NCBI GenBank assembly: GCA_902798965.1 | Contig: CADBYS010000023.1 | Span: forward strand, 1-48,946 | Direction: 5' to 3' | DNA length: 48,946 bases | Source of the DNA: an uncultured Bacteroidales bacterium | Lineage (GTDB): Bacteria; Bacteroidota; Bacteroidia; Bacteroidales; Paludibacteraceae | In this document: in pieces, positions 9,267 through 40,838 of the stretch | Position numbering within the stretch: the first letter of the stretch is position 1 | How the letters are laid out: each line of letters opens with the position of its first letter | Translations under genes and position numbers: made by a program | The notes under the pieces: model-generated | The model's database searches: none | What the model was told of the DNA's origin: nothing | What the model saw: the letters and a program-made list of their open reading frames with translations, nothing else

Positions 9267-9652
9267 GTAGGTATTTGGGTTAAAAATGATATGTTTCTAT
9301 CCGCATCAATCTGCGCAACAACGGTCTGCTTACCGTTCGAGAGAATGAGATAAGGCGCATGCACCGTGGTGTTATATACCGCTGCCTGATCGAGCACCGC
9401 TTGGGTGATAGCCACCTGTTCGGCCTTGAACTCCAGCAACATCAACGGTTGCAAAGCCGGCGAATACACCACGGCATCGCAACGTTTCTCGACACCCGCG
9501 CCCACCTTTATCGGCACTTCTACTCCGATGAGCGACTGCGGGTAAGCGTACTGCTCTACCAGGGCGCGCAAGCAACTTTGGCGCACTGCCTCCTCCGGCG
9601 TAGCTGCCACCCACTTGCGGCGAAACGGACAATATAATTGACGATCGGACAA
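9245..9652 (-). CDS. Small type I restriction HsdR N-terminal-domain-like protein
   Basis: 135 residues. The pattern RCDAVVYSP...LMLLEFKAEQV followed by Q-A-A-V-Y-N resembles the PD-(D/E)XK nuclease fold of the HsdR N-terminal domain family (HSDR_N_2), with D, E and K of the EFK motif present. There are no helicase domains and no hsdM or hsdS nearby, so it is not a restriction system by itself; stand-alone copies are common in Bacteroidetes and their role is unknown. No ATG fits: the first usable start is a TTG at 9652, after a short tandem-repeat stretch. A start further upstream at a non-standard codon cannot be excluded. The 3' end overlaps phoH by 22 nt. Confidence 0.8.
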   Translation of the reverse strand: MSDRQLYCPFRRKWVAATPEEAVRQSCLRALVEQYAYPQSLIGVEVPIKVGAGVEKRCDAVVYSPALQPLMLLEFKAEQVAITQAVLDQAAVYNTTVHAPYLILSNGKQTVVAQIDADRNISFLTQIPTWNQLLS

Positions 9653-9690
9653 TTGACGATTGACGATTGATTGACAATTGCTGTCAATTG
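9641..9690 (-). repeat. Short tandem repeat array (about 7-bp period) at the glnS/HsdR-N junction
   Basis: Read on the minus strand just after the glnS stop, near-identical units AATCGTC, AATCGTC, AATTGTC follow one another, flanked by diverged copies (GTCAATC, GATCGTCAATT). The array ends at or within the TTG start of the downstream gene. It belongs to a set of similar arrays with different unit sequences at other gene junctions in this window (13703, 15677, 20243, 31879, 40811, 42091). Confidence 0.75.
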
Positions 9691-9692
9691 AA

Positions 9693-11387
9693 CTATTTCA
9701 AATAATTATCTTTGAGCGAGCAGGTGCGGTTCAGTACCAGCTTGTCGGCCGTAGTATCCGGATCAACCACAAAGTATCCCTGCTTGAGGAGCTGGTAGTG
9801 GTTCTCTTGCTCTACGCCATTGACCATCACCGGCTCGTGCAGCTCGCTGCGCAGCGATCCTTCGACCTTGATATTTTTTACGACCAGACTTTCGGGGTTA
9901 AGCATATCGCGGAAGTCACCTTCCTCAGCTGCGGGATTCTCTACGGCAAACAAGCGATCATACAAACGTGCTTCGGCATCAAGCGCCGAGCGGCACTCTA
10001 CCCAGTTGATGGTAGCTTTCGTCTTGCGATTGCCGCCTTCGGTGCCGGACTTGGAGTTCGGGTCGTAGGTGGCATATACCGTGGTGATATTGCCCTCGGC
10101 ATCCTTCTCGCACCCGGTGGCTTGGATGATATAGCTGCTCTTGAGGCGCACCTCACGCCCACCCGGGCTGAGGCGGAAGAACTTGTTGTCAGCCTCCTCC
10201 AGGAAGTCGCCACGCTCAATCCATAACTCTTTGCCAAACTGCATCTCGCGTGTGCCGAGCTCCTCATGGCCGTCGATATTGTCGGCAATGATCGTCTCGC
10301 CTTCACCCTCGTAGTTGGTGATGACCAATTTCACGGGATCGAAGATAGCGCATATACGCGGAGCTGTCTCTTTCAGATTCTCGCGTATGGTGTGCTCCAG
10401 CAAGCCTACATCGATCATTCCCTCCACCTTAGTATAACCGATGCGGTCGATGAACTCACGAATAGCCTTGGCGGTATAACCGCGGCGACGCAGACCGCAT
10501 ACAGTCGGCATACGCGGATCGTCCCAGCCGGCTACCAGACCTTCCTTCACCAGCTGCAGCATCTTACGCTTGGACATCACGGTGTAGGTGATGTTCAGGC
10601 GGTTGAACTCATACTGGTGCGGACGGTACTCGCCCTGCGGAACGAACTGATCGATGAAATAGTCATACAACGGACGGTGCACCACAAACTCCAAGGTACA
10701 TATACTGTGCGTCACACCCTCGAAATAATCGCTCTGACCGTGAGCGAAGTCGTACATAGGATAAACGTTCCACGTATGACCCGTGCGGTGATGCGGATGC
10801 GAGGTAATGATACGGTACATGATAGGATCGCGGAAGTGCATGTTCGGGTTGGCCATATCAATCTTAGCACGCAACACCATCTTTCCCTCGGGAATCTCCC
10901 CGTTCTGCATAGCTTGGAACAGACGCAGATTCTCCTCTACCGGGCGGTCTCTGTAAGGCGATGCCACACCCGCCTCGGTGGGTGTACCTTTCTGCTCGGC
11001 AATCTGCTCGGCGGTCTGCTCATCCACATACGCCTTGCCCTCCTTGATGAAGCGGATGGCCAGGTCGTAGAGCTGCTGGAAATAGTCGGAGGCATAGTAT
11101 ATATGTCCCCACTTGAAACCCAACCACGCTATATCGCGTTCGATAGAGTCAACATACTCCACGTCCTCCTTCACGGGATTCGTGTCATCGAAGCGCAGGT
11201 TACATACGCCGTTATAGCGCTCGGCGATTCCAAAATCCAGACATACGGCCTTCACATGACCAATATGCAGATAGCCGTTAGGCTCGGGCGGGAAACGCGT
11301 CTGTATACGACCGTTGTTCACTCCCTCGGCGAGGTCTTTCTCTACGATTTGCTCAATGAAATTGAGGCTCCTTTCTTGCTCTTCCAT
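9693..11387 (-). CDS. glnS: Glutaminyl-tRNA synthetase
   Basis: 564 residues, normal for bacterial GlnRS. It charges tRNA-Gln with glutamine in the cytoplasm. The class I signatures are both present: the HIGH-type motif PEPNGYLHIGHVKAV near residue 32 and the KMSKS-type motif VMSKRKM near residue 270. The C-terminal anticodon-binding beta barrels are present (…HWVECRS-like NWVECRSALDAEARLYDRLF, then a final domain ending in CSLKDNYLK). A direct GlnRS suggests the cell need not use the Glu-tRNA(Gln) amidotransferase route for this tRNA. The start MEEQERSLNFIEQIV is usual for Bacteroidetes GlnRS. About 38 bp separate it from the unknown gene upstream, and no promoter of the consensus type is visible there. 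Confidence 0.97.
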   Translation of the reverse strand: MEEQERSLNFIEQIVEKDLAEGVNNGRIQTRFPPEPNGYLHIGHVKAVCLDFGIAERYNGVCNLRFDDTNPVKEDVEYVDSIERDIAWLGFKWGHIYYASDYFQQLYDLAIRFIKEGKAYVDEQTAEQIAEQKGTPTEAGVASPYRDRPVEENLRLFQAMQNGEIPEGKMVLRAKIDMANPNMHFRDPIMYRIITSHPHHRTGHTWNVYPMYDFAHGQSDYFEGVTHSICTLEFVVHRPLYDYFIDQFVPQGEYRPHQYEFNRLNITYTVMSKRKMLQLVKEGLVAGWDDPRMPTVCGLRRRGYTAKAIREFIDRIGYTKVEGMIDVGLLEHTIRENLKETAPRICAIFDPVKLVITNYEGEGETIIADNIDGHEELGTREMQFGKELWIERGDFLEEADNKFFRLSPGGREVRLKSSYIIQATGCEKDAEGNITTVYATYDPNSKSGTEGGNRKTKATINWVECRSALDAEARLYDRLFAVENPAAEEGDFRDMLNPESLVVKNIKVEGSLRSELHEPVMVNGVEQENHYQLLKQGYFVVDPDTTADKLVLNRTCSLKDNYLK

Positions 11388-11425
11388 ATATGTGCAATAT
11401 TTTTAAAAATCTATATTATTACAAA

Positions 11426-12307
11426 TCAATCCATATCACAGAATGTGTTCCATGGAATGATGTTAGGATTGGTGAAATCAACGTTATTCTTTTCGTCAGG
11501 GAATATTACTATTCGCGGATAACTCCAAAGGTCAAAATACGGAAAGTCTGCCAATTCATTGACAAAATTTTTACGCACGTAATCAACAAACTCCTGCTCA
11601 TGTTTATTAAGATACTCTTCTCGTAATTCTTCCAGGTTGTTTCTGTCCGTACCACGCCATGCAATCTGTATATTGAAGGATTCCGCTGTTACGGTATATT
11701 GCGAAACTCCTTTTCCGTACTTCCAAGATGTATGTTTTTGCACACTGAACAGATGCATCGGATAATCTTTATGAAACTCGCGCAGCAAGGCTCTGCATTG
11801 CGGCATCAACAAGACAAGATTATCTTCCGATTTGTTCTCCACACACCGGCAGCAAGCGTTCATAACCGACACTAATTCTTTGCAAAGTCCAGTTTTAGGA
11901 GACCAGCAATAAGCAGAATGAGAAACCGTCTTGAAAATAAAATAATCGCCATCATCTCCCAAAAATTCGTACATGTATGAGGCTGTGTTTACAGCTGATG
12001 CTATCAAGCTGTTAATTATTTGCGCCACACTATCAGCCACCGGCATTCGATATGTTTTTAATTTTGCATCCGGATGATACCAAGTATTTTCTTCTGCCTT
12101 AATGAGCACAAATTCTATGGGCTCTCTTGTACATGCCAATACGTATCCTGCGTCAAAAGAAGGGGCAACCGTATAAACAAATGCCGGATATTTAGGAATC
12201 AAATCTGTTGCGACACCTGTCTCTGAAGAAGTAGGGACGAGTCCATCTTGTGCCACCATGTGCGTCACTACTAATACAGCAATTATAATAAATATTGTCT
12301 TTCGCAT
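11426..12307 (-). CDS. Hypothetical exported protein
   Basis: About 293 residues. A clear signal peptide (MRKTIFIIIAVLVVTHMVAQ) is followed by a mature protein of mixed alpha/beta character with no motif recognised. Two cysteines sit close together in CCRCVENKSED near the middle. The ATG at 12307 gives a clean signal peptide; an ATG at 12319 would add four residues. It lies 20 bp after the preceding gene and 38 bp before glnS and may be co-transcribed with them. Composition is AT-richer than glnS, which suggests an accessory gene within a housekeeping run. Function unknown. Confidence 0.7.
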   Translation of the reverse strand: MRKTIFIIIAVLVVTHMVAQDGLVPTSSETGVATDLIPKYPAFVYTVAPSFDAGYVLACTREPIEFVLIKAEENTWYHPDAKLKTYRMPVADSVAQIINSLIASAVNTASYMYEFLGDDGDYFIFKTVSHSAYCWSPKTGLCKELVSVMNACCRCVENKSEDNLVLLMPQCRALLREFHKDYPMHLFSVQKHTSWKYGKGVSQYTVTAESFNIQIAWRGTDRNNLEELREEYLNKHEQEFVDYVRKNFVNELADFPYFDLWSYPRIVIFPDEKNNVDFTNPNIIPWNTFCDMD

Positions 12308-12327
12308 ATCAAGTTGCATTTAATAAC

Positions 12328-12756
12328 CTAATTATCTTTTGCGATATTATGTCGTAACTGGTTGTAGATGACGGCATAGACGAAGCGGTCGAACTGGGTG
12401 TAGACTTTCTGCCTGCCTGTTTTCTTGAGGACAGGTGCTTCGGGGTCGGGCTTGCCGGTGCTGAGCTGGTGGTCGAAACGGGTACGGAAATCGGCAAGTT
12501 CGGGGTCTTGCGCAGCAAACATCGCATTGGTGCGTGCTTGCGCCTGAGCCATGATGTCCATGTTGCGTTTCTCGTCACCGCGGGGAGGTTTCTTCTTGAA
12601 ATCACGCTTATCCACCTGCATGTAGGCATGTTCGTCATCCAGAACGACCCGGCCGCGCGAGTCGTACCGCCGCGTCTTGCGGTAGATGATGTCGTCTTTG
12701 CGGTTGAGTTTGCCCGCCAAAGCCTCAAAGAGTGATGCCAAACCGAATTTTGCCAT
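12328..12756 (-). CDS. Hypothetical Bacteroidales protein, basic
   Basis: 142 residues, start MAKFGLASLFEALAGKL. It is rich in Lys and Arg, with a KKKPPRGDEKRN segment near residue 55 and a C-terminal QFDRFVYAVIYNQLR segment. It resembles small uncharacterised proteins of Bacteroides species that begin MAKYG or MAKFG and share a PDPEAP...K segment; this is memory of the family, not a search. There is no signal peptide or membrane segment. A second long frame overlaps it (12309-12728) and was judged a shadow. Upstream lies a four-copy 11-bp direct repeat (12826-12869) that could regulate it. Function unknown. Confidence 0.6.
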   Translation of the reverse strand: MAKFGLASLFEALAGKLNRKDDIIYRKTRRYDSRGRVVLDDEHAYMQVDKRDFKKKPPRGDEKRNMDIMAQAQARTNAMFAAQDPELADFRTRFDHQLSTGKPDPEAPVLKKTGRQKVYTQFDRFVYAVIYNQLRHNIAKDN

Positions 12757-12825
12757 GTTGCCAGCGGTTGTTTTGGGTTGTCTTGTTGTGTCCTGACTAT
12801 AGTCTGCTTGCGTGCCGGTGAGGTT

Positions 12826-12869
12826 TATAACCTAGGTATAACCTACGTATAACCGGGGTATAACCTAGG
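12826..12869. repeat. Four head-to-tail 11-bp repeats, unit TATAACCTAGG
   Basis: Exact 11-bp period: TATAACCTAGG (12826), TATAACCTACG (12837), TATAACCGGGG (12848), TATAACCTAGG (12859). The unit contains the palindrome CCTAGG. The array lies 70-113 bp upstream of the minus-strand gene starting at 12756 and about 57 bp past the end of lpxA. A period near one helical turn would put each unit on the same face of DNA, as in a regulator or iteron-like binding array. No protein is known to bind it. Confidence 0.85.
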
Positions 12870-12925
12870 GGGAGTCCGAGAAAAGCCTTTCCCAGTACTG
12901 ATACAATCCTCTATTTACACCTTGT

Positions 12926-13702
12926 TTACATCGTGCCGCGTATCACCCCTCGCGGTGAACTGGTGATAAAACTCACTATCGCGTCGCGTTCGGGCGATGC
13001 AGGCAGCGTTTCGTTGATCTGCTGCAGTGCCTGCGATACGTTCAGGCCTGACATATATACGAGGCGGTACGTATCCTGAATAGCTCCTATCTGTTCACGT
13101 GTGAACCCGCGCCTGCCCAGACCTACGCTGTTGATACCGCAGAACGATACCGGCTCGCGGGCCGCAATCACGTAGGGCGGTATATCCTTGTTCACCTTCG
13201 TACCGCCTTGCGTCATCGAGTGTGCGCCTACATGCGTGAACTGATGCACCAGCGAACCGCCGCCAAGAATAGCGTACTCGTCCACCACGACCTCACCGGC
13301 TAATTGTGTGGCATTGGACATGATGATGTGGTCATGCAGCAGGCAGTCATGTGCCACGTGGGAGTACGCCATTATTAGGCAGTGGCTGCCCACCACGGTC
13401 TGTCCCTTGCTGGCCGTGCCGCGATGCACTGTGGCACACTCGCGGATGACCGTGTTATCGCCGATGATAGCGAGGGTGTCTTCGCCACGGAACTTCAGAT
13501 CCTGAGGTATAGCCCCGACCACTGCTGAGGGGAAGATTGTACAATCAGCACCTATACGTGCACCATACAAGACCGAGGCGTTCGCCATGACCTTGGTGCG
13601 GGCACCTATCTCTACGTTGGCTTCAATATATGCGAACGGACCGATCTCGGCTGTCGGGTCGATGATGGCCTTGGGATCAACACATGCTAAGGGATGTATC
13701 AT
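12926..13702 (-). CDS. lpxA: UDP-N-acetylglucosamine acyltransferase
   Basis: 258 residues, the standard length. LpxA makes the first transfer of lipid A synthesis, moving a 3-hydroxyacyl chain from acyl carrier protein to UDP-GlcNAc in the cytoplasm. The first two thirds are hexapeptide repeats of a left-handed beta helix (IDPTAEIGPFAYIEANVEIG and so on). The catalytic histidine region AYSHVAHDC near residue 120 is intact, and GGTKVNKDIPPYVIA is the usual C-terminal signature. It is the third gene of the lpxD-lpxC-lpxA set, 35 bp after lpxC. Confidence 0.96.
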   Translation of the reverse strand: MIHPLACVDPKAIIDPTAEIGPFAYIEANVEIGARTKVMANASVLYGARIGADCTIFPSAVVGAIPQDLKFRGEDTLAIIGDNTVIRECATVHRGTASKGQTVVGSHCLIMAYSHVAHDCLLHDHIIMSNATQLAGEVVVDEYAILGGGSLVHQFTHVGAHSMTQGGTKVNKDIPPYVIAAREPVSFCGINSVGLGRRGFTREQIGAIQDTYRLVYMSGLNVSQALQQINETLPASPERDAIVSFITSSPRGVIRGTM

Positions 13703-13737
13703 AACATTTACAATTTTGCCATTTACAATTTATTCAT
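13703..13737 (-). repeat. Short tandem repeat in the lpxC-lpxA junction
   Basis: The whole 35-bp spacer, read on the minus strand from the lpxC stop, consists of repeated units AATTGTA / AATGGCA, then AATTGTA / AATGTT, so a 14 to 15-bp block made of 7-mers occurs twice. It lies exactly where other Bacteroidetes carry the FabZ part of an LpxC-FabZ fusion. Confidence 0.65.
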
Positions 13738-14646
13738 TTAGATCTGCTTGGGGTAGATCTTGTTGCGGAGTTGGCGGGCACACGAAGTGTTGAAAGTGTG
13801 TCCGGGTTTTTCAGCTATCACGCGTGCCTGCAGACGGCAACCTACGAGCGACAAATCTCCGATTACATCGAGCAGCTTGTGTCGCGCCGGCTCGTTGTGG
13901 AAGTGAATGGGCGAGAGGTAGCCAAGTTTGGTGGCATCCAGTCGCGGTTGCCCGAGCTTGTCGGTCAGGTAGTCAATACCCTCCTGCGACATCGGCGTCT
14001 CGTAGATAACCAGCGCGTTCTTCAGGTCGCCGCCTTTGATCAGTCCGAGACGCAGCAGCGGCTCTATCTCCCGAACGAAACAGAACGTGCGAGCAGAGGC
14101 TATCTCGCGCTCGTAATCCTTCAGATCCTTGAGCTCAGCGTGCTGATGATTGAGAATCTGCGACGGGTAACTCACCTCTACTTCCACTTCATACTTTTCG
14201 TTTGGCAAGAGCAGCAATCGGTTGCCATGCTCGGAGATATATTCGATGGGTTCGTTTACAACGTACACCTCGACTTCGGCATCCTGTTCAGTTATCCCCG
14301 CCTGCCGGATGGCATGTACGAACGGCATAGCGCTACCGTCGAGTATCGGCATCTCCGGACCATCCACTTCAATCAGGCAGTTGTCTATACCCAATGCATA
14401 CAGGGCAGATAGCGAGTGCTCTACGGTGGAAATACGCCAACTGCCATGCTCCAGCACCGTGCCGCGTTCGGTAGCAGACACGTAATCGGCATACGCATGG
14501 TGCGTTGGCTTGTCCGGCAGATCTGTGCGGCACAGACGGATACCGTAGTTCGCCTCAGCCGGCAGGAATCGGGCATGTATATACACGCCGGTGTGCAAAC
14601 CTTTGCCTTCGAGCGTGAACGGTTGAGCTATAGTGTGTTGCTTCAT
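13738..14646 (-). CDS. lpxC: UDP-3-O-acyl-N-acetylglucosamine deacetylase, unfused form
   Basis: 302 residues. LpxC is the zinc-dependent deacetylase that commits UDP-acyl-GlcNAc to lipid A. The zinc ligands are visible: [10 protein letters not shown] (His after Glu), [10 protein letters not shown] (His and Asp) and KPGHTFNTS (His). LDGSAMPFV is the substrate-loop signature. In many Bacteroidetes this gene is fused to fabZ and encodes about 460 residues; here it ends at NKIYPKQI with no dehydratase domain, and lpxA begins 35 bp later. Its start overlaps the lpxD stop by 4 nt (ATGA), so the two are translationally coupled. Confidence 0.96.
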
Positions 14647-15671
14647 TCCTGTTGTTTCTTTTTGATGGTTTGTACGTCGCGCTGGAGGTCGGGCAGATAC
14701 TTGAATACTACGGATGAACGCCGCCAGAGCATAGCATCGATAGCCGGTGAGCCTTGGTACTGACCGGGTTGACGGATAGAACCCGCCACGCCGGCCTGTG
14801 CGCCGCAGATCACGTTATCCACTAATGTCACGCTGTTCGCCACGCCGACCTGACCGGCGAGGATGCAGTGCTTGCCTACTGTACTTGAACCGGCTATACC
14901 GACCTGCGAGCACAGGAAGGTCGATTCGCCTACCTGCACGTTGTGCGCCACTTGAACCAGATTGTCAATCTTGACATTTTTGGATATATGCGTCTCGCCC
15001 ATCATCGCGCGGTCAATCGTCGTGTTGGCACCTATCTCCACGTCATCGTCAATGACCACCGTACCGATCTGCGGAATTTTGTGGTTCACGCCTTCGGCAT
15101 CCGGCTCAAAACCGAATCCGTCAGCACCGATCACGCACCCTGCGTGGATGATGCAATTGCGTCCAACCTTGCAGTGGTCGTAGATCTTCACGCCCGAGTA
15201 GATGATCGTGTTGTCGCCAATCGAAACATGATCGCCGATATATGCCTGCGGGTAGATTTGTACGCCACGACCGATCTTGACGTTCTGACCTATATACGCA
15301 AACGCTCCGACATAAACATCCTCGGGCAGCGTTATGCCTCCCGCAACAAACGACGGTTGCTCGATACCTTTCTTCCGCGGGCGAAGGAACTCCGAAACGC
15401 CCTGCAGCAGCCGTCCCATTGCCTGACGGGCGTTATCTACGAGGATGAGCGTCGCGCCAACGGTCAGGGAAACATCGTATAAGGAACGCGTCAGCAGAAC
15501 GACTGAGGCTCCGGTTGTTGCCAGTGCCGACAAGAACTTCTCGTCTGTAACGTAGGACAATGTGCCGAACTTACCCTGCTCAATCGGACTGACGTCATGA
15601 ATCTGCACAGAGGCATCGCCAATCACTTCTCCGCCGACAAAGGCTGCTATTTGTTGCGCTGTAAATTGCAT
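14643..15671 (-). CDS. lpxD: UDP-3-O-acylglucosamine N-acyltransferase
   Basis: About 342 residues. LpxD adds the second acyl chain to the glucosamine nitrogen. The N-terminal domain [18 protein letters not shown] matches LpxD, and the rest is a left-handed beta helix of hexapeptide repeats, with [10 protein letters not shown] near residue 245 holding the catalytic His. The helical C-terminus ends in a lysine-rich tail. The frame extends to a TTG at 15683, but two adjacent ATGs (15674 and 15671) after AAAGGA are the likely start. It is first of the lpx genes, preceded by a heptamer array and the HD protein gene. Confidence 0.95.
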
Positions 15672-15676
15672 CATTC

Positions 15677-15704
15677 CTTTCAATTTTCAATTTTCACCTT
15701 TCAC
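15677..15704 (-). repeat. Four tandem heptamers between the HD gene and lpxD
   Basis: On the plus strand the units are CTTTCAA, TTTTCAA, TTTTCAC, CTTTCAC (15677-15704), followed by CTTACTG. On the coding strand they begin one base after the stop codon of the HD gene and end at the lpxD start region. The unit and the flanking CTTACT are nearly identical to the array at 40811-40838, 25 kb away. Confidence 0.85.
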
Positions 15705-15705
15705 C

Positions 15706-16926
15706 TTACTGCATGTAGAACAGGTATAGTTTCTTCGGCTTATACGTCAATGTCTGCAGGTTCAGCATATCGGAAGCATCGGCAATATTGCGGACTGTTC
15801 CGTCGTTGTACAAAATGTCGATGCTATCGTCTTTTTCTGAATACGTATTCGATGTCGATACATGCTCCACAAAGAAGTACTCCGCCTCGCTCTTCGATAT
15901 GCCGAATCGTGTGGCGTATTGCTGTTGCAAGGTGTTGCGCTCATCAACCGTCAGTGGTTCTTGCAGCAACTTGCCCTTGAACAGCCTGCGGTTCACAAAC
16001 GCCTCTGCCAGCAGCCGCAGCGTCGTGTCCTCGTGTGCCTGCCAGGCCTTGATAGCCGACAGTATATCCGCATCGTCCAGCAAGGCGTACTGCGCTAATG
16101 CAAAACTGTCTTGCGCAAACGCATCGCCGGTTATATGCCGGTAGAGGAAGTAGTGCAACGCCGGCGGACAGAATAGTTCAACACCCTCATGCGCCAGTTG
16201 TTTGGCGCGGTCGAGGATCTTGATCAGCAGCTGTTCGGCTGCAACGGATGTCTTGTGCAGATACACCTGCCAGTACATCAACCGCCGCGCAATCAGGAAC
16301 TTCTCCACCGAATAGATACCTTTCGCCTCAATCACCAGCCGGTCATCCACCACGTTCAGCATCTTGATCAGTCGCGCTGAGGCGACACTGCCTTCCGTCA
16401 CGCCCGTGAAGAACGAGTCGCGGCAGAGGTAGTCCATCCGATCCATATCGAACTGCGATGAGATCAACTGGTGCAGAAAATGCTTGTGATACTTATTTCG
16501 GAAGATTGCAATAGCCGTATCCAGCGCGCCGTTCATTTCCCGATTGATCTGTTCCATCATAATCAGCGACACCTCTTCGTGCGTGATGCCCTCAATCAGG
16601 GTGTGCTCCATCACATGCGAGAACGGAGCATGACCGATGTCGTGCAGCAGAATGGCTACCATCGCTCCGTCAGCTTCCTCGGGAGTTATCTCAACGCCTT
16701 TCTGCCTTAGCGAAGCGATGGCATCGCTCATCAAGTGCATCGCACCTATCGAGTGAAGGAATCGGCTGTGTTGCGCACCGGGATAAACGACATACGACAA
16801 ACCAAGTTGTCGTATGCGGTTCAAACGTTGCACATAAGGATGTTGCAGCACGTCATAGATGAACTCGTTGGGGATATTGATAAACCCAAACACCGGGTCG
16901 TTGATGATCTTTCGCTTATTAGCCAT
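15706..16926 (-). CDS. HD-domain phosphohydrolase (dGTPase-like)
   Basis: 406 residues. The HD signature is complete: QLGLSYVVYPGAQHSRFLHSIG (first His) and AILLHDIGHAPFSHVMEHT (HD pair), then a later Asp in SSQFDMDRMDYLCRDSFFTG. This pattern matches the HD hydrolases related to dGTP triphosphohydrolase (YdhJ/SAMHD1-like branch), which cut dNTPs or other phosphate esters with a metal; the substrate here is unknown. The start MANKRKIINDPVFGFI is the common one in Bacteroidetes. It lies 22 bp after sigA and precedes lpxD. Confidence 0.9.
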   Translation of the reverse strand: MANKRKIINDPVFGFINIPNEFIYDVLQHPYVQRLNRIRQLGLSYVVYPGAQHSRFLHSIGAMHLMSDAIASLRQKGVEITPEEADGAMVAILLHDIGHAPFSHVMEHTLIEGITHEEVSLIMMEQINREMNGALDTAIAIFRNKYHKHFLHQLISSQFDMDRMDYLCRDSFFTGVTEGSVASARLIKMLNVVDDRLVIEAKGIYSVEKFLIARRLMYWQVYLHKTSVAAEQLLIKILDRAKQLAHEGVELFCPPALHYFLYRHITGDAFAQDSFALAQYALLDDADILSAIKAWQAHEDTTLRLLAEAFVNRRLFKGKLLQEPLTVDERNTLQQQYATRFGISKSEAEYFFVEHVSTSNTYSEKDDSIDILYNDGTVRNIADASDMLNLQTLTYKPKKLYLFYMQ

Positions 16927-17969: not shown

Positions 17970-17980
17970 ATTGCCTCATC

Positions 17981-18515: not shown

Positions 18516-20237
18516 TTATTCTGCCGGAATGATATCTTCCACTTTCATCTGCAGCGATGTGACACCGTTGTAGGTATTCTCTTCAAGGCTGTAGCACACA
18601 TCCACGGCATTGCCGTTTTGGATATACGGCGCCATGTCGCCCTTGCCGAACGCTATGCCGCTGATGGCCATATGGCGGTCGGTGAGATCGAGCTTGAGAT
18701 GTTCGCCGAGCTTCCCCACGCGACGCGTGTAGCGGTTATTGATCAGTGCGCGCGTAACGAACTTGGGATGCGGATTCTGCGGTCCGAAAGGTTCGAGATG
18801 TTTCAACAGGTTGTAGAACTGCTTGTCGATATTACTCAGTTCTATCTCATCCTCGATGCGCAGCACGGGTACTTGCTGCTCGTCGGTGATATGTGCAGCC
18901 ACATACTCCTCAAACCGACGCTTGAACTCGGGCAGATTAGCCGGTAGCATACTCAGCCCGGCAGCAAACATATGTCCGCCGAAGTTAGTGAGCAGATCGC
19001 GGCAGGAATCGATGGCGGTATAGATATCAAATCCTCCTACGCTGCGTGCCGAACCGGCGATGAGACCGTCGTCGGTGTCAGCGAGAACAATAGTAGGTCG
19101 GTAGTAGTTCTCCGTGAGGCGTGAAGCCACTATACCCAGCACGCCACGATGCCATGTCGGACCGTACACCACATTCGTGTGCAAGGTAGCATTGTCGGGG
19201 TCGGCTTCAAGTTGCTGCAAGGCTTCGTGGGTAATCGTTTCGTCCTTCTCCTTGCGCTCGCTATTGAACGACTCAATGGTCTGCGCAATCTCCGTTGCTA
19301 CCGTGGCATCATTGCTTATAAGCAATTCCACCGCCGCTCGTCCGGATTTGATACGTCCGCAGGCATTGAGTCGCGGACCAATACGGTACACAAGATCGGA
19401 CATATTAACAGTCTGTCCTTCCAGACCGTTCATACGCAATAATCCCTGCAATCCTACCGAGGGATGTTTGCTTATCTGCTCTATGCCGAAGTAGGCCAGC
19501 ACGCGGTTCTCGCCCACCAGCGGCACTATATCGGATGCGATAGACATAGCCAGCAGTTCGAGCAACGGAGTGAGCGCCTGCTCAAACGACATGTGATGTG
19601 TCTGAGCATATGCCTGTGCCAGCTTGAATCCCACGCCGCACCCCGACAGTTCCTTGAACGGATAAGGATCGTCCGGCTGCTTGCTGTCCAGCACCGCTAC
19701 GGCTTGCGGTATATCGGTGCCGGGCATATGATGGTCGCAGATGATGAAGTCTATACCGCGCATGCGGGCATACTCCACCTTATCGGCCGACTTAATACCG
19801 CAGTCCAGGGCGATAATAAGGCTGCAACCGTTGGCCTGGGCATAATCCACACCGCGGAACGATATACCGTAACCCTCGGTGTACCGGTCGGGGATATAAT
19901 AATCGATATTCGTATAGAACGAACTGAGGAACCGGTACATCAGCGCCACGGCTGTTGTGCCATCCACATCATAATCGCCGTAGATAAGTATTTTCTCGTT
20001 GCGCTCGATAGCATCGGACAACCGTCGTTCTGCCTCGCGCATACCGAGCATAAGCATCGGATCATGCAACTGATTCATATTAGGATGCACGAATGCCGAA
20101 GCCTGTTCGCGGTTGGTGATCCCTCTGCGCACCAGCAGAGCCGCAGCCATAGGATGGATATGCAGTTCGTCGGCCAAGCGGTCGCGAAGTGCCAGCTGCT
20201 CGTCGGTAAGGGATTGTATCTGCCAGGAATATTTCAT
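18516..20237 (-). CDS. recJ: Single-stranded-DNA-specific 5'-3' exonuclease RecJ
   Basis: 573 residues. RecJ degrades single-stranded DNA 5' to 3' in recombination and mismatch repair. The DHH-family motifs are in order: YGDYDVDGTTAVA (motif I, near residue 87), LDCGIKS (motif II), ICDHHMPG (motif III, the DHH), then GCGVGFKLAQA and the DHHA1 part with GGHMFAAGLSM. The C-terminal OB-like domain ends in MKVEDIIPAE. Start MKYSWQIQSLTDEQ. It is the last gene of the nfeD-floA-amidase-recJ run, 54 bp after the amidase gene. Confidence 0.96.
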   Translation of the reverse strand: MKYSWQIQSLTDEQLALRDRLADELHIHPMAAALLVRRGITNREQASAFVHPNMNQLHDPMLMLGMREAERRLSDAIERNEKILIYGDYDVDGTTAVALMYRFLSSFYTNIDYYIPDRYTEGYGISFRGVDYAQANGCSLIIALDCGIKSADKVEYARMRGIDFIICDHHMPGTDIPQAVAVLDSKQPDDPYPFKELSGCGVGFKLAQAYAQTHHMSFEQALTPLLELLAMSIASDIVPLVGENRVLAYFGIEQISKHPSVGLQGLLRMNGLEGQTVNMSDLVYRIGPRLNACGRIKSGRAAVELLISNDATVATEIAQTIESFNSERKEKDETITHEALQQLEADPDNATLHTNVVYGPTWHRGVLGIVASRLTENYYRPTIVLADTDDGLIAGSARSVGGFDIYTAIDSCRDLLTNFGGHMFAAGLSMLPANLPEFKRRFEEYVAAHITDEQQVPVLRIEDEIELSNIDKQFYNLLKHLEPFGPQNPHPKFVTRALINNRYTRRVGKLGEHLKLDLTDRHMAISGIAFGKGDMAPYIQNGNAVDVCYSLEENTYNGVTSLQMKVEDIIPAE

Positions 20238-20242
20238 GGTTA

Positions 20243-20270
20243 GTCGATAGTCAATAGTCGAAAGTCAAAA
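20243..20270 (-). repeat. Four tandem heptamers between the amidase gene and recJ
   Basis: On the plus strand the units are GTCGATA, GTCAATA, GTCGAAA, GTCAAAA (20243-20270). They differ only at the A/G and T/A positions and end five bases before the recJ start codon on the minus strand. Confidence 0.85.
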
Positions 20271-20291
20271 GCTATTAGTAGTGTGTCAAAA

Positions 20292-21071
20292 TTATTTTAA
20301 GCGAACGAGCTTGCGGTCGGTATCACGCCACAGGGGTAACGCTTCGCGGTAGTGCTTCAATACGGGCATGGACAGGTCGGCAATGCGCGTGCCTTGCTCA
20401 TTGTCCTGAAAACCTAACAACTCCTTGAGTCGCGTATCATAAGCTACGGAGTGACCGTTGTAATGCCATCCTGCCCCATCGTCGCCCACGAGGTTAGCCG
20501 CCACAATGTAACACTGGTTCTCCACAGCGCGCGCAGCCACCAGCACATCCCACATGGCTATACGTGCTTCCGGCCAGTTGGCGCTAACAAGGATAAGGTC
20601 GTAATCATCGCCCCAGACGTTGCGTGCCCACACAGGAAAACGCACATCATAACAGATGAGCATCAGGATCTTCACGCCCTGATAGGTGAAGATAGTACGC
20701 CGGTCGCCGGGCGTGAAGAAACGGTCTTCACCTCCGGTAGCATACAAGTGCCGTTTGTCGGTGAACTGCGGTGCGGCGTTGGGCGAGAGCAGGAACCCGC
20801 GGTTGAACAGCTTGCCGCTGTCGCTGCAGATGAACGTGCCGGCAATAGCCACTCCGCTCTTGTCAGCCACTTGCTGCATGGTACGGATGGTATAGCCGTC
20901 AACCGGCTCTGCGAGCTGCGGACGATCCACACAGAACCCGGTACTGAACATCTCCGGCAGCAACGCCACATCGGCCTCACCGGCCAATGCAGCGATGCGC
21001 TCAGCGGCTGCGCTGACGTTAGCGCGCACATCTCCCCATACGATAGGATACTGTAATACCGCTACTCTCAT
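20292..21071 (-). CDS. Carbon-nitrogen hydrolase, omega-amidase (YafV-like)
   Basis: 259 residues, one nitrilase-fold domain. The catalytic Glu-Lys-Cys triad is visible: E40 in [11 protein letters not shown]106 in FTDKRHLY and C140 in [16 protein letters not shown] is typical of the YafV branch, which hydrolyses 2-oxoglutaramate or 2-oxosuccinamate, clearing transamination by-products; that substrate is inferred from the family. Its start overlaps the floA stop by 4 nt (ATGA), so translation is probably coupled. Confidence 0.9.
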
Positions 21072-30417: not shown

Positions 30418-31875
30418 ATGAAAGACTTACAACCCAGCGGCTTATGGCAGAATTTTGCCAAGCTGACACAGATCCCCCGTCCTTCGGGCAAGAAAGAGGA
30501 GATTTCCCAGTTTCTGTTTGCGTATGGCAAGAGTCTCGGATTAGAGACCTTGACTGATTCCATCGGCAATGTGCTTATTCGCAAGCCTGCTTATCCAGGC
30601 TACGAGGATCATCCGGGCGTTATACTGCAGGGACATATGGATATGGTTCCTCAGAAGAACTCGGATAAGGTGTTCGATTTCGAAAAGGATCCTATCGAGG
30701 CGTATGTAGAGGACAACAAGCAGTGGGTGACAGCTAACGGCACGACGCTTGGTGCGGATAATGGTATAGGTGTAGCTACGGCTATGGCTATCCTGGCTGA
30801 CAAGAACGTGGTTCATCCTCCTCTCGAGGCTTTCTTTACCGTAGATGAGGAGACGGGTATGTACGGCGCGTTCGCTCTGGAGGGCGGCTGGCTGCAAGGC
30901 AAGACGCTGCTTAATCTGGATTCGGAGACGGAAGGTGAACTGTATATGGGTTGCGCCGGCGGTGTGGATACTACGGCTACGTTCCGTTACGTTCCGGTAG
31001 CGGTTGAGGAAGGCGACATAGCGTTCCGCGTACGCCTGTCAGGCTGCAAGGGAGGCCACTCAGGCTGCGATATCCATCTGCAGCGTGCCAATGCCAACAA
31101 ACTGCTCTTCCGCTTCCTCAAGGAGGCTGTAACGAACTATGAGGCACGTCTGGCCAAGGTGGAAGGCGGATCACTGAGAAACGCTATACCGCGCGAGGCA
31201 GAAGCTATCATCACCGTGCCGGCTGACGCTTATGACGACATCATGAACCTGGTGGATGACTTCGAGACGCTGTTTGTAAGCGAATTTGAGGGCGTAGAAG
31301 ACGCTATCAGCCTCACAGCTGAACAAGTATCCTGCCCCAAGGTGGAAATGCCTGAGGATGTACAGGATTTTCTGATTCACGCTATTACTGTTTGTCCGCA
31401 CGGTGTATATAGGATGATGGTCGAGATGCCGGATATAGTGGAGACCTCCAACAACCTGGCAATGATTGAGTTTGCCGAGGATGGTGAGGAGCATGTTGTC
31501 CGCGTATATTGCCTGACGCGTTCGGCTGTGGAGAGCCGCAAGAACGAGCTGCGTGAGGTGATTCATTCTGCTTTCTCTATTGCAGGTGCTGATGTCGAGT
31601 TCTCGGGCGATTATCCCGGCTGGAAGCCGAACATTAACAGTCCGATCATGCACAAGATGAAGGCTATCTACGAGCGTGAGTTCCATGCCGAGCCGCGTAT
31701 AGTGATTATCCATGCCGGACTGGAGTGCGGTATCATAGGCCGCAACTATCCGGGTATGGATATGATATCATTCGGCCCGACGATCGAGCACCCGCACAGT
31801 CCCGATGAGCGCGTGAATATTGCTACGGTACAAAAGTTCTACGACTTCCTGCTGGCAACGCTCAAAGAGCTGTAA
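30418..31875 (+). CDS. pepD: Aminoacyl-histidine dipeptidase (M20 family, PepD)
   Basis: 485 residues, the size of PepD. It is a cytosolic di-zinc dipeptidase with broad specificity, including carnosine-like Xaa-His. The metal ligands are visible: LQGHMDMVPQ (His, Asp), GADNGIGVATA (bridging Asp), VDEETGMYGA (catalytic and metal Glu), LDSETEG (Asp) and GPTIEHPHSPDE (His). The start MKDLQPSGLWQNFAKLTQIPRPS is standard. It stands alone on the plus strand, closed by a heptamer array and a terminator. Confidence 0.96.
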   Translation: MKDLQPSGLWQNFAKLTQIPRPSGKKEEISQFLFAYGKSLGLETLTDSIGNVLIRKPAYPGYEDHPGVILQGHMDMVPQKNSDKVFDFEKDPIEAYVEDNKQWVTANGTTLGADNGIGVATAMAILADKNVVHPPLEAFFTVDEETGMYGAFALEGGWLQGKTLLNLDSETEGELYMGCAGGVDTTATFRYVPVAVEEGDIAFRVRLSGCKGGHSGCDIHLQRANANKLLFRFLKEAVTNYEARLAKVEGGSLRNAIPREAEAIITVPADAYDDIMNLVDDFETLFVSEFEGVEDAISLTAEQVSCPKVEMPEDVQDFLIHAITVCPHGVYRMMVEMPDIVETSNNLAMIEFAEDGEEHVVRVYCLTRSAVESRKNELREVIHSAFSIAGADVEFSGDYPGWKPNINSPIMHKMKAIYEREFHAEPRIVIIHAGLECGIIGRNYPGMDMISFGPTIEHPHSPDERVNIATVQKFYDFLLATLKEL

Positions 31876-31878
31876 GCG

Positions 31879-31906
31879 ATCAGCTGTCAGCAATCAGCAA
31901 TCAGAT
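31879..31906 (+). repeat. Four tandem heptamers after the pepD stop
   Basis: Units ATCAGCT, GTCAGCA, ATCAGCA, ATCAGAT run from 31879 to 31906, starting three bases after the pepD TAA and ending six bases before the terminator stem. Confidence 0.85.
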
Positions 31907-34589: not shown

Positions 34590-34597
34590 GAATCGAT

Positions 34598-34765: not shown

Positions 34766-34809
34766 ATCTGATATGATTTAAGAAAATTCTATTTTTTGCT
34801 CACAGCCTA

Positions 34810-34841: not shown

Positions 34842-34881
34842 TATTTTAGGCATTTTTTTTCAAAAAAATTCATTTTTTCGC

Positions 34882-37016: not shown

Positions 37017-37044
37017 AGTATATGAGTTTACTTGGTGCGGGGTA

Positions 37045-37683
37045 TTACTTTTGCGCCTTTACGTTTTTCGTTTCGGCCTTGATGATGTCGCGGCGTGACT
37101 TGAGCGTAGCTTCCAATTGCTTGATGTCGGTCTCCTTGTTCGTCAGCTCGTTGTTGAATACCATCAGGTCGGTACGTATCAGTTGAATCTGCTGCGGGTG
37201 GTTAGCCAGTTGCGTCTGGCGATTGGCTGTGGCATTGATGGCAGCATCCAGGCCGCGGCGTTGCAGTTGCAGTTGCTCCACTGCCTTGTCGCGCGTCTCC
37301 AGGTTGAGATCGGTGATCTTGTTGAGCTGAGTGAGCTGCTTGTCGGCATTCTCCTTGAGTTTGGTGAGCTCATCGATCTCCTTCTTCGACATCTCTTGCA
37401 GTTTCTTGAACGATGCCTCGGCCTTGTCGATGTACGATGTCATCGATTTCAGATATTCCTTCTCGGTCTTGAACTGGCTCTGGGCATCCTTCAGCATCTT
37501 CGTATCGTCCTTGAGCAGTTTGTCCAGTCGTTGCAGCTCGAGCAGGTACGATTGTCCGGAATACTGTGCACGCAATTCGTCAAGATTAACCTCCGTGATG
37601 TGCAGATTGAGCGGAGTAACATGTTGCGCTGACATCGACATGGTCAGCATGGCAACGATGGCCAGAATGAATGTTTTTTTCAT
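37045..37683 (-). CDS. Exported coiled-coil protein of unknown function
   Basis: 212 residues. A signal peptide (MKKTFILAIVAMLTMSMSAQ) precedes an almost continuous coiled coil rich in Lys, Glu, Leu and Gln (about residues 45-210, for example LLELQRLDKLLKDDTKML). No catalytic motif is seen. It is probably a periplasmic structural or chaperone-like protein; an OmpH/Skp relation is possible but not supported by clear signature residues. It has its own perfect promoter (37747-37778), overlapping the divergent one for the exonuclease-Sua5 gene. Confidence 0.8.
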   Translation of the reverse strand: MKKTFILAIVAMLTMSMSAQHVTPLNLHITEVNLDELRAQYSGQSYLLELQRLDKLLKDDTKMLKDAQSQFKTEKEYLKSMTSYIDKAEASFKKLQEMSKKEIDELTKLKENADKQLTQLNKITDLNLETRDKAVEQLQLQRRGLDAAINATANRQTQLANHPQQIQLIRTDLMVFNNELTNKETDIKQLEATLKSRRDIIKAETKNVKAQK

Positions 37684-37746
37684 TTTTTTGGTATTTAAAA
37701 GTATATTTATTTCGCAGGTTGCACGATATTTTTCGATTTGACGCTA

Positions 37747-37778
37747 CAAAGATACAAAAAAATTTGTAAATTTGCAAA
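37747..37778 (-). promoter_or_regulatory. Bacteroidetes-type promoter for the coiled-coil secreted protein and upp
   Basis: On the minus strand, TTTG (37778-37775), a 20-nt spacer and TATCTTTG (37754-37747). It shares 16 bp with the divergent promoter at 37763-37794. Confidence 0.88.
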
Positions 37779-37794
37779 AAATTTTGTAACTTTG
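37763..37794 (+). promoter_or_regulatory. Bacteroidetes-type promoter for the exonuclease-Sua5 gene
   Basis: TTTG (37763-37766), a 20-nt spacer and TAACTTTG (37787-37794). The ATG follows at 37823. The site overlaps the divergent promoter by 16 bp. Confidence 0.88.
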
Positions 37795-37822
37795 TGTGCT
37801 TTTATTGAATAATTGCCGAATA

Positions 37823-39073
37823 ATGGAACACACAAAGCAATTTTTGCCCCATATTTCGAAAGAATTGGTGAATTTGATGCCCCTTTCTCAGTTCGAGGGT
37901 GACACGATCATCATCGACCATCCGGATCAGGTGGCCGAAGCAGTGGCTTATCTGAGTCAGTATAGTCAGTTGGGTATCGATACGGAGTCCCGTCCGTCGT
38001 TCACCCGCGGCACGCACTACCCTACTGCTTTGGTTCAGGTCGCCACCGACGAGCGTTGCTATCTCTTCCGCCTGAATAAGATAGGTATGCCTGCTGAGTT
38101 GGCGGATCTGTTCAGTAATCCGAAGATATGCAAGGTGGGTCTGGCGTTCCGGGATGATCTCAACGGCCTGCGCCGCTTGCACGACTTCAAGCCGCAGAAC
38201 TGTGTGGATCTGCAGTCGATGGTGGCGAAGTACGGCATATTGGAGTTGGGCTTGCAACGGATCTATGCTATCATTTTCGGCAAGAAGATTTCCAAATCGC
38301 AGCAGCTGACCAACTGGGAGGCAGAGACCTTGAGCCAGGAACAGGCACGTTATGCCTCGACGGACGCGTGGGCTACACTGCGTATATACGAGGCGCTGCA
38401 GCAGACCAAGATGTTACCCAAGCGCGAAGTGGAGCGGCTGGTACATGCCGAGCGTGAGTCGCAGGTGCAGCACCAGCTGGAGATCAATATGCACAAGGAT
38501 ATCGACCAGGCTATTGAGGTACTGCGGCAGGGTGGGGTGATCCTGTACCCGACGGATACGGTGTGGGGTATGGGTTGCGATGCCACGAACGCAGTGGCGG
38601 TGAGCAAGCTGTTCCGACTCAAGCAAAGAGATAAGGGCAAGGCAGTGCTTGTGCTCGTGGATTCGGCGGAGCGCGTAGCGGAATATATCCCTGATATACC
38701 CGACGCTGCGGCTAACCTGCTGGAGGTTACGAAACCCGAGGAGGGTGTAGCCCCCAAGGCGCTGACAATCATCTATCCCAAGGCACAACATGTGGCGGAA
38801 GAGATACTGGCAGAGGACGGCAGTTTGGGTATACGCGTCACGTACGAGAAGTTCTCGAACATGCTCTGCCGGCAGCTGGGCAAACCGCTCGTATCCACCT
38901 CGGCTAATTATGCGGGTAAGGCTACACCCAAGGCGTTCTGCGAGATCGACGGTCAGCTGCTCAAATCGGTGGATTATGTATGCCACTCCCGTCGCGGCGA
39001 GAACCAACCGGCCAAGCCGAGCAGTATCATCAAGGTAGGAGAACAAAACCAAATAACCATCATTCGCCCATGA
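37823..39073 (+). CDS. Fusion of a DEDD 3'-5' exonuclease and a Sua5/YrdC (TsaC) domain
   Basis: 416 residues from the ATG at 37823. Residues about 25-195 are an RNase D-like DEDDy exonuclease: LGIDTESRP (D53, E55), LAFRDDLNGL (D111) and ARYASTDAW (Y177, D181). A short charged linker (about 198-222) leads to a Sua5/YrdC domain (about 223-416): GGVILYPTDTVWGMGCDA, KQRDKGKAVLVLV, LGIRVTYEKF and KPLVSTSANYAG. The second domain makes threonylcarbamoyl-AMP for t6A; the first probably trims RNA or DNA. An internal ATG (38489) at the domain border may be the ancestral Sua5 start. The stop overlaps the next start by 4 nt. Confidence 0.93.
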   Translation: MEHTKQFLPHISKELVNLMPLSQFEGDTIIIDHPDQVAEAVAYLSQYSQLGIDTESRPSFTRGTHYPTALVQVATDERCYLFRLNKIGMPAELADLFSNPKICKVGLAFRDDLNGLRRLHDFKPQNCVDLQSMVAKYGILELGLQRIYAIIFGKKISKSQQLTNWEAETLSQEQARYASTDAWATLRIYEALQQTKMLPKREVERLVHAERESQVQHQLEINMHKDIDQAIEVLRQGGVILYPTDTVWGMGCDATNAVAVSKLFRLKQRDKGKAVLVLVDSAERVAEYIPDIPDAAANLLEVTKPEEGVAPKALTIIYPKAQHVAEEILAEDGSLGIRVTYEKFSNMLCRQLGKPLVSTSANYAGKATPKAFCEIDGQLLKSVDYVCHSRRGENQPAKPSSIIKVGEQNQITIIRP

Positions 39074-40341
39074 CGCAACGAAGAAAACTCCAATTGGCTT
39101 ATGTAGCGGCAGATTTCTTGTCGGCGGAAGTGGTGTGGCTGTGTTTCCTGCTGTTCCGTTGGCTGGTGTACGAGGGTAAGATGTTCAGCGTGGATACGGT
39201 GCTTATCCCGGCATTCAACTTCTATACGCCGCTGATCCTGTACCCTATAGGCTGCCTTATCATCTACTATCTGTCGGGTTACTACCTGCGCGTGCAGCGC
39301 AAGCGTCTGTCGCACGAGTTGATGGCTACGTTCATCTCGTCGATCGTCATCGCGCTGGGTGCGTTCTTCATCATCATCATCGACGATCAGGTCGAGAGTT
39401 ATCACCGTTATGTGGTGTCGATGGGTATATTGTGGTTGCTGCAGTTTAGCGTCAGTTACGCGCTGCGGCTGCTGCTCACCCTGCATATACGCCGGCATGC
39501 ACGCCCTGCAGCGTCGGTGACTATACATGGCGAGGAGGAAGTAAAGGATCTGAAGGTGAACAAGGGCGACATGGTAGTAGTGGATCTGCCGGCTACGGCG
39601 GACGAGAATGTGCTGTACCGCATCATTCAGCACCTGTATCCGCTGGATGTGGAGATAGCTGTGGTGCCCAAATTGTACGATATGCTTACCGGTGCGGCTA
39701 AAATCCCCGAGCTGAGCGGTAATCCGCTGGTGATGATCACCGAGCAGCATGCTTCGGATTCGGAGTTGTGCATCAAGCGGGCGTTTGATGTGGTGACGGC
39801 AGTGCTGGTGCTGGTACTTTTATCGCCGTTGTATGCTTTGCTGTGGGTGCTGGTGTATAGTTCGTCGAAGGGATCGGCGTTCTACAGCCAGGAGCGTATA
39901 GGTTTGCACGGTAAGCCGTTTGCTATCTATAAGTTCCGCACCATGGTTCAGGATGCCGAGGACGCTATGCCGCAACTCTCCACCGACGATGATCCGCGTG
40001 TGACGCCGGTAGGACGATTCATGCGCAAGTACCGCCTGGACGAACTGCCGCAGATGTGGAACATACTGCGTGGCGATATGTCCATCGTGGGGCCGCGACC
40101 CGAGCGGGAGTTTTTCATTAAGCAGATTGTCGAGCAAGCGCCGTATTACTGCCTGCTCTATAAGATTCGTCCGGGAATGACCAGCTGGGGACCTATCCGT
40201 GTGGGATATACCGATACCTTGCAGAAGATGATCGACCGCCTGAACTACGATATCGTGTATATGGAGAATATGTCCATCCGTCTGGATATCAAGATTCTGT
40301 TTTTCACGATCGGAGTGATATTGGATGGAAAAGGAAAATAA
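39070..40341 (+). CDS. Polyprenyl-phosphate sugar (hexose-1-phosphate) transferase
   Basis: 423 residues. Four membrane helices in the first 140 residues, a soluble middle part and a fifth membrane segment ([20 protein letters not shown]) precede the bacterial sugar transferase domain: [37 protein letters not shown] and [10 protein letters not shown]. Such enzymes start O-antigen, capsule or exopolysaccharide repeat units by moving a sugar phosphate to undecaprenyl phosphate at the inner membrane; the sugar cannot be read from sequence. The start ATG overlaps the previous stop (ATGA). No other glycan genes adjoin it, so it may act as a dispersed initiating enzyme. Confidence 0.92.
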
Positions 40342-40565
40342 TAATTTTTGACCAACAATATTCATCGTAATGAGTTCATTGTAATTTATTTATGTTTATT
40401 GCTGATTGTGTCTGTTACTCGAAGAGTTGTGGATTTGGCGGATAAGGCTATCGACAAATAAGTCTTATTTGGGCGAGAGGCTTATACGACGAATACACAA
40501 GTTCGGTACGAACTACAGACACCATCAGGGTTTATGTAGGTTTATTTTCGTAAATAATATACATT
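40342..40565 (+). other. Intergenic region before xseB
   Basis: No gene, RNA gene, terminator or consensus promoter was recognised in these 224 bases on either strand. Confidence 0.4.
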
Positions 40566-40757
40566 ATGGATAATTTGACGTACGATCAGGCGATCAAACG
40601 CGTGGAAGAGATAGTGCGCGAGCTGGAGCAAACCGAAGCATTGTCGGTTGCCGATTACAAGCAGAAAGCCAAACAGGCAAGCGAGCTGCTCAACTTCTGC
40701 CGGGCGCAACTGGTGGATATGGAGCGCGAACTGGCTACCGATAGCGAGCGTGAGTAA
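40566..40757 (+). CDS. xseB: Exodeoxyribonuclease VII small subunit
   Basis: 63 residues, the usual size. LTYDQAIKRVEEIVRELEQTE and the following helix (KQAKQASELLNFCRAQL-like KAKQASELLNFCRAQL) match XseB, which forms the helical stalk of exonuclease VII together with XseA. The large subunit gene xseA, usually adjacent, is not in the window on either side within view, so the pair is split or xseA lies elsewhere. Confidence 0.93.
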   Translation: MDNLTYDQAIKRVEEIVRELEQTEALSVADYKQKAKQASELLNFCRAQLVDMERELATDSERE

Positions 40758-40784
40758 CAGAGTAGGGTAATGCGTACATCTGTG

Positions 40785-40805
40785 CGCGGCATTTTCGATG
40801 CCGCG
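40785..40805. terminator. Hairpin after xseB, possible terminator
   Basis: CGCGGCAT (40785-40792) pairs with ATGCCGCG (40798-40805) around TTTCG. The following sequence is pyrimidine-rich but has no clean T run. It lies between convergent genes. Confidence 0.5.
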
Positions 40806-40810
40806 TCTCC

Positions 40811-40838
40811 CTTTCACCTTTCACCTTTCACTTTTCAC
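40811..40838. repeat. Four tandem heptamers between xseB and the ATPase gene
   Basis: CTTTCAC three times, then TTTTCAC (40811-40838), followed by CTTACTA. Read on the minus strand the array follows the ATPase gene's stop. Nearly the same as the array at 15677-15704. Confidence 0.88.

Follow-up and report, generated by a model that had tools for sequence, protein, structure and literature searches.

What places short tandem arrays of seven-base units at gene junctions, with the unit differing from one junction to the next, is the question raised by contig CADBYS010000023.1, contig 23 of the assembly GCA_902798965.1 (2.85 Mb, 51 contigs) of an uncultured Bacteroidales bacterium of the family Paludibacteraceae. 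The whole contig, 48,946 nucleotides in length, is referred to here as the window. The original prediction held that each junction had a unit of its own, and proposed slippage, templated filling or a structural signal as the origin. Analysis of the window, of other stretches of the same genome and of related genomes revealed an excess of period-7 arrays that fall into unit families, have fixed ends, lie in frame within conserved enzymes as well as in spacers, and change from species to species at the same site. The arrays are probably short, non-autonomous dispersed elements with a heptamer array as their body, copied as units, kept where they are tolerated and often replaced.

Exact lag-7 runs of at least 12 numbered 3 in the window and 35 in 386.6 kb of other stretches of the same genome, with none in Markov-2 copies. 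Within the same 386.6 kb, periods 4, 5, 6, 9 and 12 gave one run each, period 8 gave five, period 11 four and periods 10 and 13 none; the 21 and 8 runs at periods 14 and 15 are partly harmonics. Genes were called by our own open reading frame and dicodon scoring and not by a standard gene finder, so that all counts for genes and spacers are approximate. The intergenic DNA (42.3 kb of 435.5 kb) contained 18 lag-7 runs, where 20 dinucleotide shuffles averaged 0.05, and 0–3 runs at periods 5, 6, 8 and 9, while called genes held a further 16 lag-7 runs of at least 12. Per 10 kb there were 8.5 arrays in DNA outside called genes, as against 0.66 within them. The excess over chance of head-to-tail, perfect or near-perfect units of seven nucleotides is a feature shared with simple sequence repeats of the heptanucleotide kind.

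The units were not specific to their junctions, since a few families recur throughout the genome, nor did all arrays share one common unit. Among 62 arrays sampled in 435 kb, the units in canonical rotation were AAAGTCG (18 arrays), AAAAGAC (11), AAAGGTG (9), AAAAGTG (5), AATCAGC (4), AAAAGTC and AATCGTC (3 each), together with nine others that occurred once. Genome-wide, the pattern AGTCGAAAGTCGAAAG had 180 matches and CCTTTCACCTTTCA, of the RGTGAAA family, had 42, against 0 for the reversed control of each, overlapping matches within one array being counted separately. For AGTCRAA, the best-studied family, 90 places carried an array of four units or more, and by exact pattern 84 of them had exactly four. 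The element consists of four units and two further bases (AGTCRAAx4 + AG), usually followed by C (44 of 57), and is thus a direct repeat of 30–31 bp. Four units were also the mode for AGWCRAA arrays in a sample unselected by copy number, both in spacers (10/20) and in sense within genes (11/16); with four the mode in spacers too, a frame constraint was rejected as the sole cause. The variant pattern GAGG was observed in 29 of 84 arrays against 8.9 expected, and the A variant lay in unit 2 in 29 of the 46 single-A arrays. Terminal inverted repeats, as in a MITE, were not seen by eye in simple arrays.

That arrays mark gene boundaries was borne out in part. Of 27 arrays between same-strand genes, 15 overlapped or lay within 5 bp of the upstream gene end, where uniform placement would predict 6.7, and five lay within 5 bp of a start codon. 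The enrichment after stop codons that had been proposed as a check is therefore present; boundaries are, however, only one kind of site, as 26 of the 62 sampled arrays fell within called genes. In 20 of 25 non-genic arrays the purine-rich strand was the gene strand (20 versus 5; P 0.004; two ambiguous arrays dropped).

Arrays were found in frame in ligA, ileS, murC, mutY and folC. For nine array-bearing proteins the best NCBIfam matches were ligA, murC, mutY, folC, a FabF-like synthase, an RluA-family pseudouridine synthase, the indolepyruvate oxidoreductase alpha subunit, glycine C-acetyltransferase and a cellobiose 2-epimerase-like protein, with five of these matches, including murC, under the curated cut-off; ileS was identified through its match to solved isoleucyl-tRNA synthetases. 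When aligned to solved LigA, IleS, MurC and MutY, the array residues fell wholly or partly in alignment gaps, which in LigA comprised 10 residues in loop 1 and the stretch separating two aligned segments. The FolC array lay outside the aligned part of the solved homologue. Orientation and context were scored at 57 of the 90 AGTCRAA places with at least four units, giving 31 arrays in sense and in frame, one antisense and 25 non-genic, and all three codon phases occurred in genes. Arrays of RGTGAAA carry TGA in every frame of one strand, as read from the units, and were found in genes only on the other strand (2/2). A role as an all-frame stop signal was rejected because AGTCRAA and AGACAAA arrays are stop-free on both strands, yet common in genes. 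Separately, a deer metagenome-assembled genome (L027, 6245–6545) has an in-frame AGTCGAA array shortly before a C-terminal tail, which we take to resemble a type IX secretion sorting domain.

The clearest view of array turnover came from single sites followed across species. For the LigA loop after the residues GSD, the 55 best-matching genomes were taken from 163 with a DNA match and 53, all of the same genus, could be parsed: 18 held a strict period-7 array, 12 other inserts and 23 a short loop. Eight units were read at this one site (AGTCRAA, GGTTACG, GGACAAA, GGCGAAA, GTCAGCC, GTGAGCG, AGACAAA and AAGTACC), two of them one base apart. Elsewhere in the order no LigA loop insert was found, all 28 aligned sequences having the short loop (28 of 29 loci, drawn from 117 matching genomes; 27 of the sequences belong to other families and one to another genus of the family). 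The five genomes with a GTTACGG array in LigA, counting the worn array of G139 as a carrier and that of G166 not, had 6–32 matches to this unit genome-wide, and at least six matches were found in 5/5 carriers against 4/48 non-carriers (Fisher P 4e-5); the LigA array itself accounts for two (G026) or three (G084) of six matches. Carriers of the GTTACGG array thus belong to species rich in GTTACGG.

The same held for the IleS loop that precedes AWTTTPWTLP (30 loci, 29 parsed), which carries AGACAAA in the genome of the window (G000) and AGTCGAA in an 88% identical relative (G007). Other IleS loops held arrays of ATTGCCA, CGAATGG, AAAATTA or AAATGGT type (only the AAATGGT type with a mixed 7/8 period) or palindromes resembling repetitive extragenic palindromes (REP-like), or were short. 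One intergenic junction had AGTCRAA, ACTGAAA and AGTTGAA arrays in three species, and different fillers at one site were also seen at sites in genes. The idea of different units with the same geometry therefore applies to orthologous sites of sister species, whereas within one genome the units recur.

Beyond these sites, the pattern AGTCGAAAGTCGAAAG was present in 26 of 41 genomes of the genus, the present one included, and the 40 others ranged from 0–2 matches (28 genomes) to 33–74 (five genomes). Twenty same-genus stretches (303 kb, of which three are wholly N, with ~7 kb of N in total and N excluded from runs) yielded 24 period-7 runs, from 8 stretches, with units varying by species. A control of 400 kb from 20 genomes elsewhere in the order, covering 19 other families and a further genus of this family, gave a single period-7 run, alongside four of period 8 and three of period 6. 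At this sampling, the period-7 arrays look concentrated in the genus.

A 67-bp composite, made of an array, a palindrome and a second array, was present at three places in the genome: on C21 in ligA, on C8 (66/67 identical) and on C24 (59/62). It recurs in the sister genome G001 (62/67). Homology among the copies ends at, or a few bases from, the array ends, and in BLAST the flanks aligned over nothing longer than a chance-sized match. As judged from these alignments, the composite copies are the strongest sign that arrays may be copied as units.

The preferred reading can be put as a sequence of steps. A tandem heptamer array with fixed ends, of which AGTCRAAx4 + AG is the best-studied form, would be copied as a unit to new places within one genome. 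Copies would persist where harm is small, at gene 3' ends, in spacers and in protein loops, and in loops only if their length and orientation leave the frame open and stop-free, as 30 bp, or 10 codons, may do. Tolerant sites would be emptied and refilled over time, leaving sister species with different words at one place. Mobility was not directly observed; we infer the copying, the order of insertion and loss, and tolerance as the reason for placement. More tentatively, and with less confidence than in the dispersed-element reading itself, the arrays might constitute a new class of mobile element whose body is wholly a heptamer array. Such an element would spread in fixed blocks of four units, use different words in different species and, throughout the genus, remodel the ends of genes as well as surface loops in essential enzymes.

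Several observations weigh against this account. Twelve of the 53 LigA loops held inserts that are not strict arrays, some resembling worn arrays and one a REP-like palindrome, and the third LigA array aligns ungapped to the E. coli protein. Units of single occurrence made up 9 of the 62 sampled arrays, and RGTGAAA arrays prefer four units weakly at most (5/15 in spacers). The position of the A variant was non-random in genes (P 0.004) but not significantly so outside them (P 0.11), and codon choice may contribute to its placement. Coding tolerance does not account for the gene-strand bias of the non-genic arrays. The IleS array of G001 is identical to that of G000, in proteins 93–96% identical, so that turnover is not fast everywhere. 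Finally, no insertion event was seen directly: strain-level relatives were not found, and the closest genomes are ~80% identical in ligA DNA. Nor did any clean empty site bearing a target duplication emerge in G007 or G001, where the spacers are too diverged. Separately, the ileS gene of G001 (L221, C23) is missing ~129 bp (43 codons), a gap that stops a few bases short of the array and may be an assembly error or a true deletion adjoining it.

Slippage in place by seven bases, in which arrays grow from local seeds wherever they are tolerated and no copying between places occurs, is the strongest of the alternatives, although we regard it as unlikely. Heptamers top the long-unit repeats of many bacterial genomes, and a cause in the polymerase footprint has been proposed, according to PMC4679880 and PMC4692102; the variation in copy number, from 2 to 10 units, would also fit. 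Such growth does not readily produce a few units that recur many times, fixed ends with a four-unit mode, composite copies that include a non-heptamer palindrome, or the identical IleS array preserved in G001 and G000. Slippage alone, as one of the processes first suggested, thus leaves the recurrence of units and the composite unexplained.

Somewhat less likely still is that the arrays, or array-palindrome composites, are moved by proteins like the REP-associated tyrosine transposases (RAYT), of the HUH type. Two proteins of the genome gave weak Y1_Tnp matches (Pfam 23.7 and 20.6 bits, cut-off 23), and the label RAYT is ours, based on these matches and, for one gene, on flanking palindromes. 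The features concerned are:

L005:658-1689 (C1:80658-81692 of the genome), RAYT-like gene with three palindromes TCGGCATCNNAAATGCCGA on each side at 36-bp spacing.
40786..40804 of the window, no strand assigned, REP-like palindrome GCGGCATTTTCGATGCCGC, directly beside the array at 40810 and with the same core as the six RAYT-flanking palindromes.

The latter is the only palindrome of that form in 435 kb that does not flank the RAYT-like gene, and its position beside a window array favours RAYT involvement, as do palindromes of other sequence inside the composites and in the same loops of sister species. Against it, the palindrome of the composite, GGGGTCCCC..., is unlike the RAYT-flanking one, and simple arrays lack a palindrome. 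The sole candidate agent found is a RAYT-type HUH protein, and it is an unproven one. In sister species, REP-like palindromes encoding peptides of LPRREG/GEGRGE type occupy the same LigA, IleS and other loops (L041, L054, L055, L084, L199, L216, L222 and L223). Templated filling by a reverse transcriptase was rejected as disfavoured, as no RVT_1 match was present in the genome, which is taken to be 90% complete.

That the arrays are a selected signal, binding a protein or acting in RNA at gene ends in, for example, termination or translation control, is improbable: such a signal would fit the excess of arrays close to gene ends and on the strand of the gene, but units at one site differ between species and 26 of 62 arrays lie inside called genes of unrelated function. 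The difference of units at one site likewise led us to reject a common structural role at junctions. An artefact of metagenome assembly, suggested by the uncultured or metagenome-derived origin of the named relatives, is very improbable, since reading frames stay open and many independent assemblies have arrays, whether alike or different, at a shared site.

Among the heptamer repeats of cyanobacteria are those in the P6b loop of the trnL intron in Nostoc, which count as STRR repeats. Two seven-base classes occur there, one repeatedly replacing the other (PMC4476775). The dispersed arrays described here share with them a position within a functional gene and the swap of classes at one place, found here in LigA, IleS and one junction. 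The Nostoc repeats form a stem in the intron RNA, whereas the present arrays are translated in conserved enzymes, show eight units at the LigA site and belong to a host of the Bacteroidales/Paludibacteraceae instead of a cyanobacterium. An excess of heptamers in bacterial genomes had been noted by Mrazek 2007, as cited in PMC4679880 and PMC4692102.

Three other systems invite comparison. Direct repeats of TAACTGA occur in Beggiatoaceae, cyanobacteria and five Bacteroidetes, with action in RNA or protein binding suggested, such as termination or translation control (MacGregor 2015, PMC4679880). They too form few-unit heptamer arrays, mostly intergenic with some within or overlapping open reading frames, and some Bacteroidetes spacers contain other heptamer repeats as well. 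In contrast, TAACTGA is one unit across organisms, with related heptamers rarely repeated in the main genome, and lies mostly upstream of starts (PMC4679880), whereas all 62 sampled arrays have other units and 15/27 lie at the upstream gene end against 5/27 near a start. The GGGNATC heptamer repeats of Xanthomonas and Nostoc (Rehm 2015, PMC4692102) are likewise a genome-wide family near gene ends that varies in length and sequence among relatives; unlike the present arrays they are G-rich and quadruplex-forming, of one conserved unit type, and 89–93% intergenic in two Xanthomonas genomes (PMC4692102). Rickettsia palindromic elements (Ogata 2000, 2002, via the review PMC10969869) are in-frame selfish DNA, similarly short, dispersed and in frame in unrelated metabolic genes, but are palindromes of ~150 bp (PMC10969869), whereas the present elements are direct repeats of ~30 bp with many units.

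Heptamer arrays in frame in conserved bacterial enzymes were undescribed in the titles and abstracts among the matches listed by searches of open-access literature, with subscription papers mostly outside those searches. The novelty seems to lie in the combination of heptamer arrays translated as part of conserved enzymes, a large number of units, and different units at the same sites, which joins two puzzles, the excess of seven-base repeats in bacteria and selfish DNA inside protein genes. In a genus with 178 species genomes, the same sites can be followed from species to species for insertion, exchange and loss, and the arrays provide a natural record of loops in a ligase, a tRNA synthetase and cell-wall enzymes that tolerate foreign peptides.

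Within the window itself, six heptamer sites had been named, and Tandem Repeats Finder confirmed period 7 at five of them (9641, 15677, 20243, 31879 and 40811). The arrays and their gene neighbours, named by NCBIfam where a name is given, are as follows:

9637..9670, no strand assigned, heptamer array with unit ATTGACG (family AATCGTC), between glnS and the next downstream gene.
9693-11387, reverse strand, glnS.
12926-13702, reverse strand, lpxA.
13705..13740, no strand assigned, 15-bp (7+8) tandem duplication with no clean heptamer array, between lpxA and the lpxC-like gene.
13738-14646, reverse strand, lpxC-like gene.
14643-15683, reverse strand, lpxD.
15676..15707, reverse strand, heptamer array CTTTCA/TTTCAAT, between lpxD and the gene that follows.
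15706-16926, reverse strand, gene adjoining this array.
18516-20237, reverse strand, recJ.
20241..20271, forward strand, four-unit array of the AGTCRAW family, in two Tandem Repeats Finder rows, between recJ and the amidohydrolase-like gene.
20292-21071, reverse strand, amidohydrolase-like gene.
30418-31875, forward strand, beta-Ala-His dipeptidase gene.
31868..31904, forward strand, heptamer array of the ATCAGCA family, overlapping the dipeptidase stop (period 14 from 31868, period 7 from 31875).
40810..40841, reverse strand, heptamer array of the RGTGAAA (CCTTTCA) family, 92% matches and 4.6 copies, directly past the stop of the 415-aa gene.
40843-42090, reverse strand, 415-aa gene, earlier called an ATPase, without an NCBIfam family at 1e-20.

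The site at 13703 was rejected as a heptamer array because the 15-bp repeat fits 13705–13740 better (85% matches, score 51) than period 7 (71%, score 31). At the other five sites the best period-7 row had 4.0–4.7 copies, in keeping with the usual four. The units do not differ completely among sites, as 15677 and 40811 have CTTTCA in common and at five of the six sites the unit is found again elsewhere, that of 15677 only partly; the array at 15677 has a lag-7 run of 12. The family of the 9637..9670 array occurs three times in 435 kb, this array included. With the period-14 limits the array at 31868–31904 contains the TAA stop, and so provides the stop codon of the dipeptidase gene. A gyrase/topoisomerase IV A subunit is a further ordinary gene among the neighbours. 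Ten relatives of the 415-aa protein, with 84–93% identity, come from Bacteroidales/Paludibacteraceae genomes, and several of these genomes are from rumen samples.

An 8-bp version of the arrays, said to precede the 415-aa gene at 42091, was not recovered: the stretch shows irregular 7–8 bp units by eye, and Tandem Repeats Finder has no row there, the nearest being a 42-bp direct repeat at 42181–42260. This repeat, with a motif of GAATAAAAAGT type upstream of the 415-aa gene, appears by eye to be conserved in nine sister loci with upstream sequence, unlike the remaining spacer, and looks like a promoter or operator repeat. A further repeat, an 11-bp unit TATAACCTAGG in four copies, lies at 12826–12869, upstream of the gene at 12328–12756.

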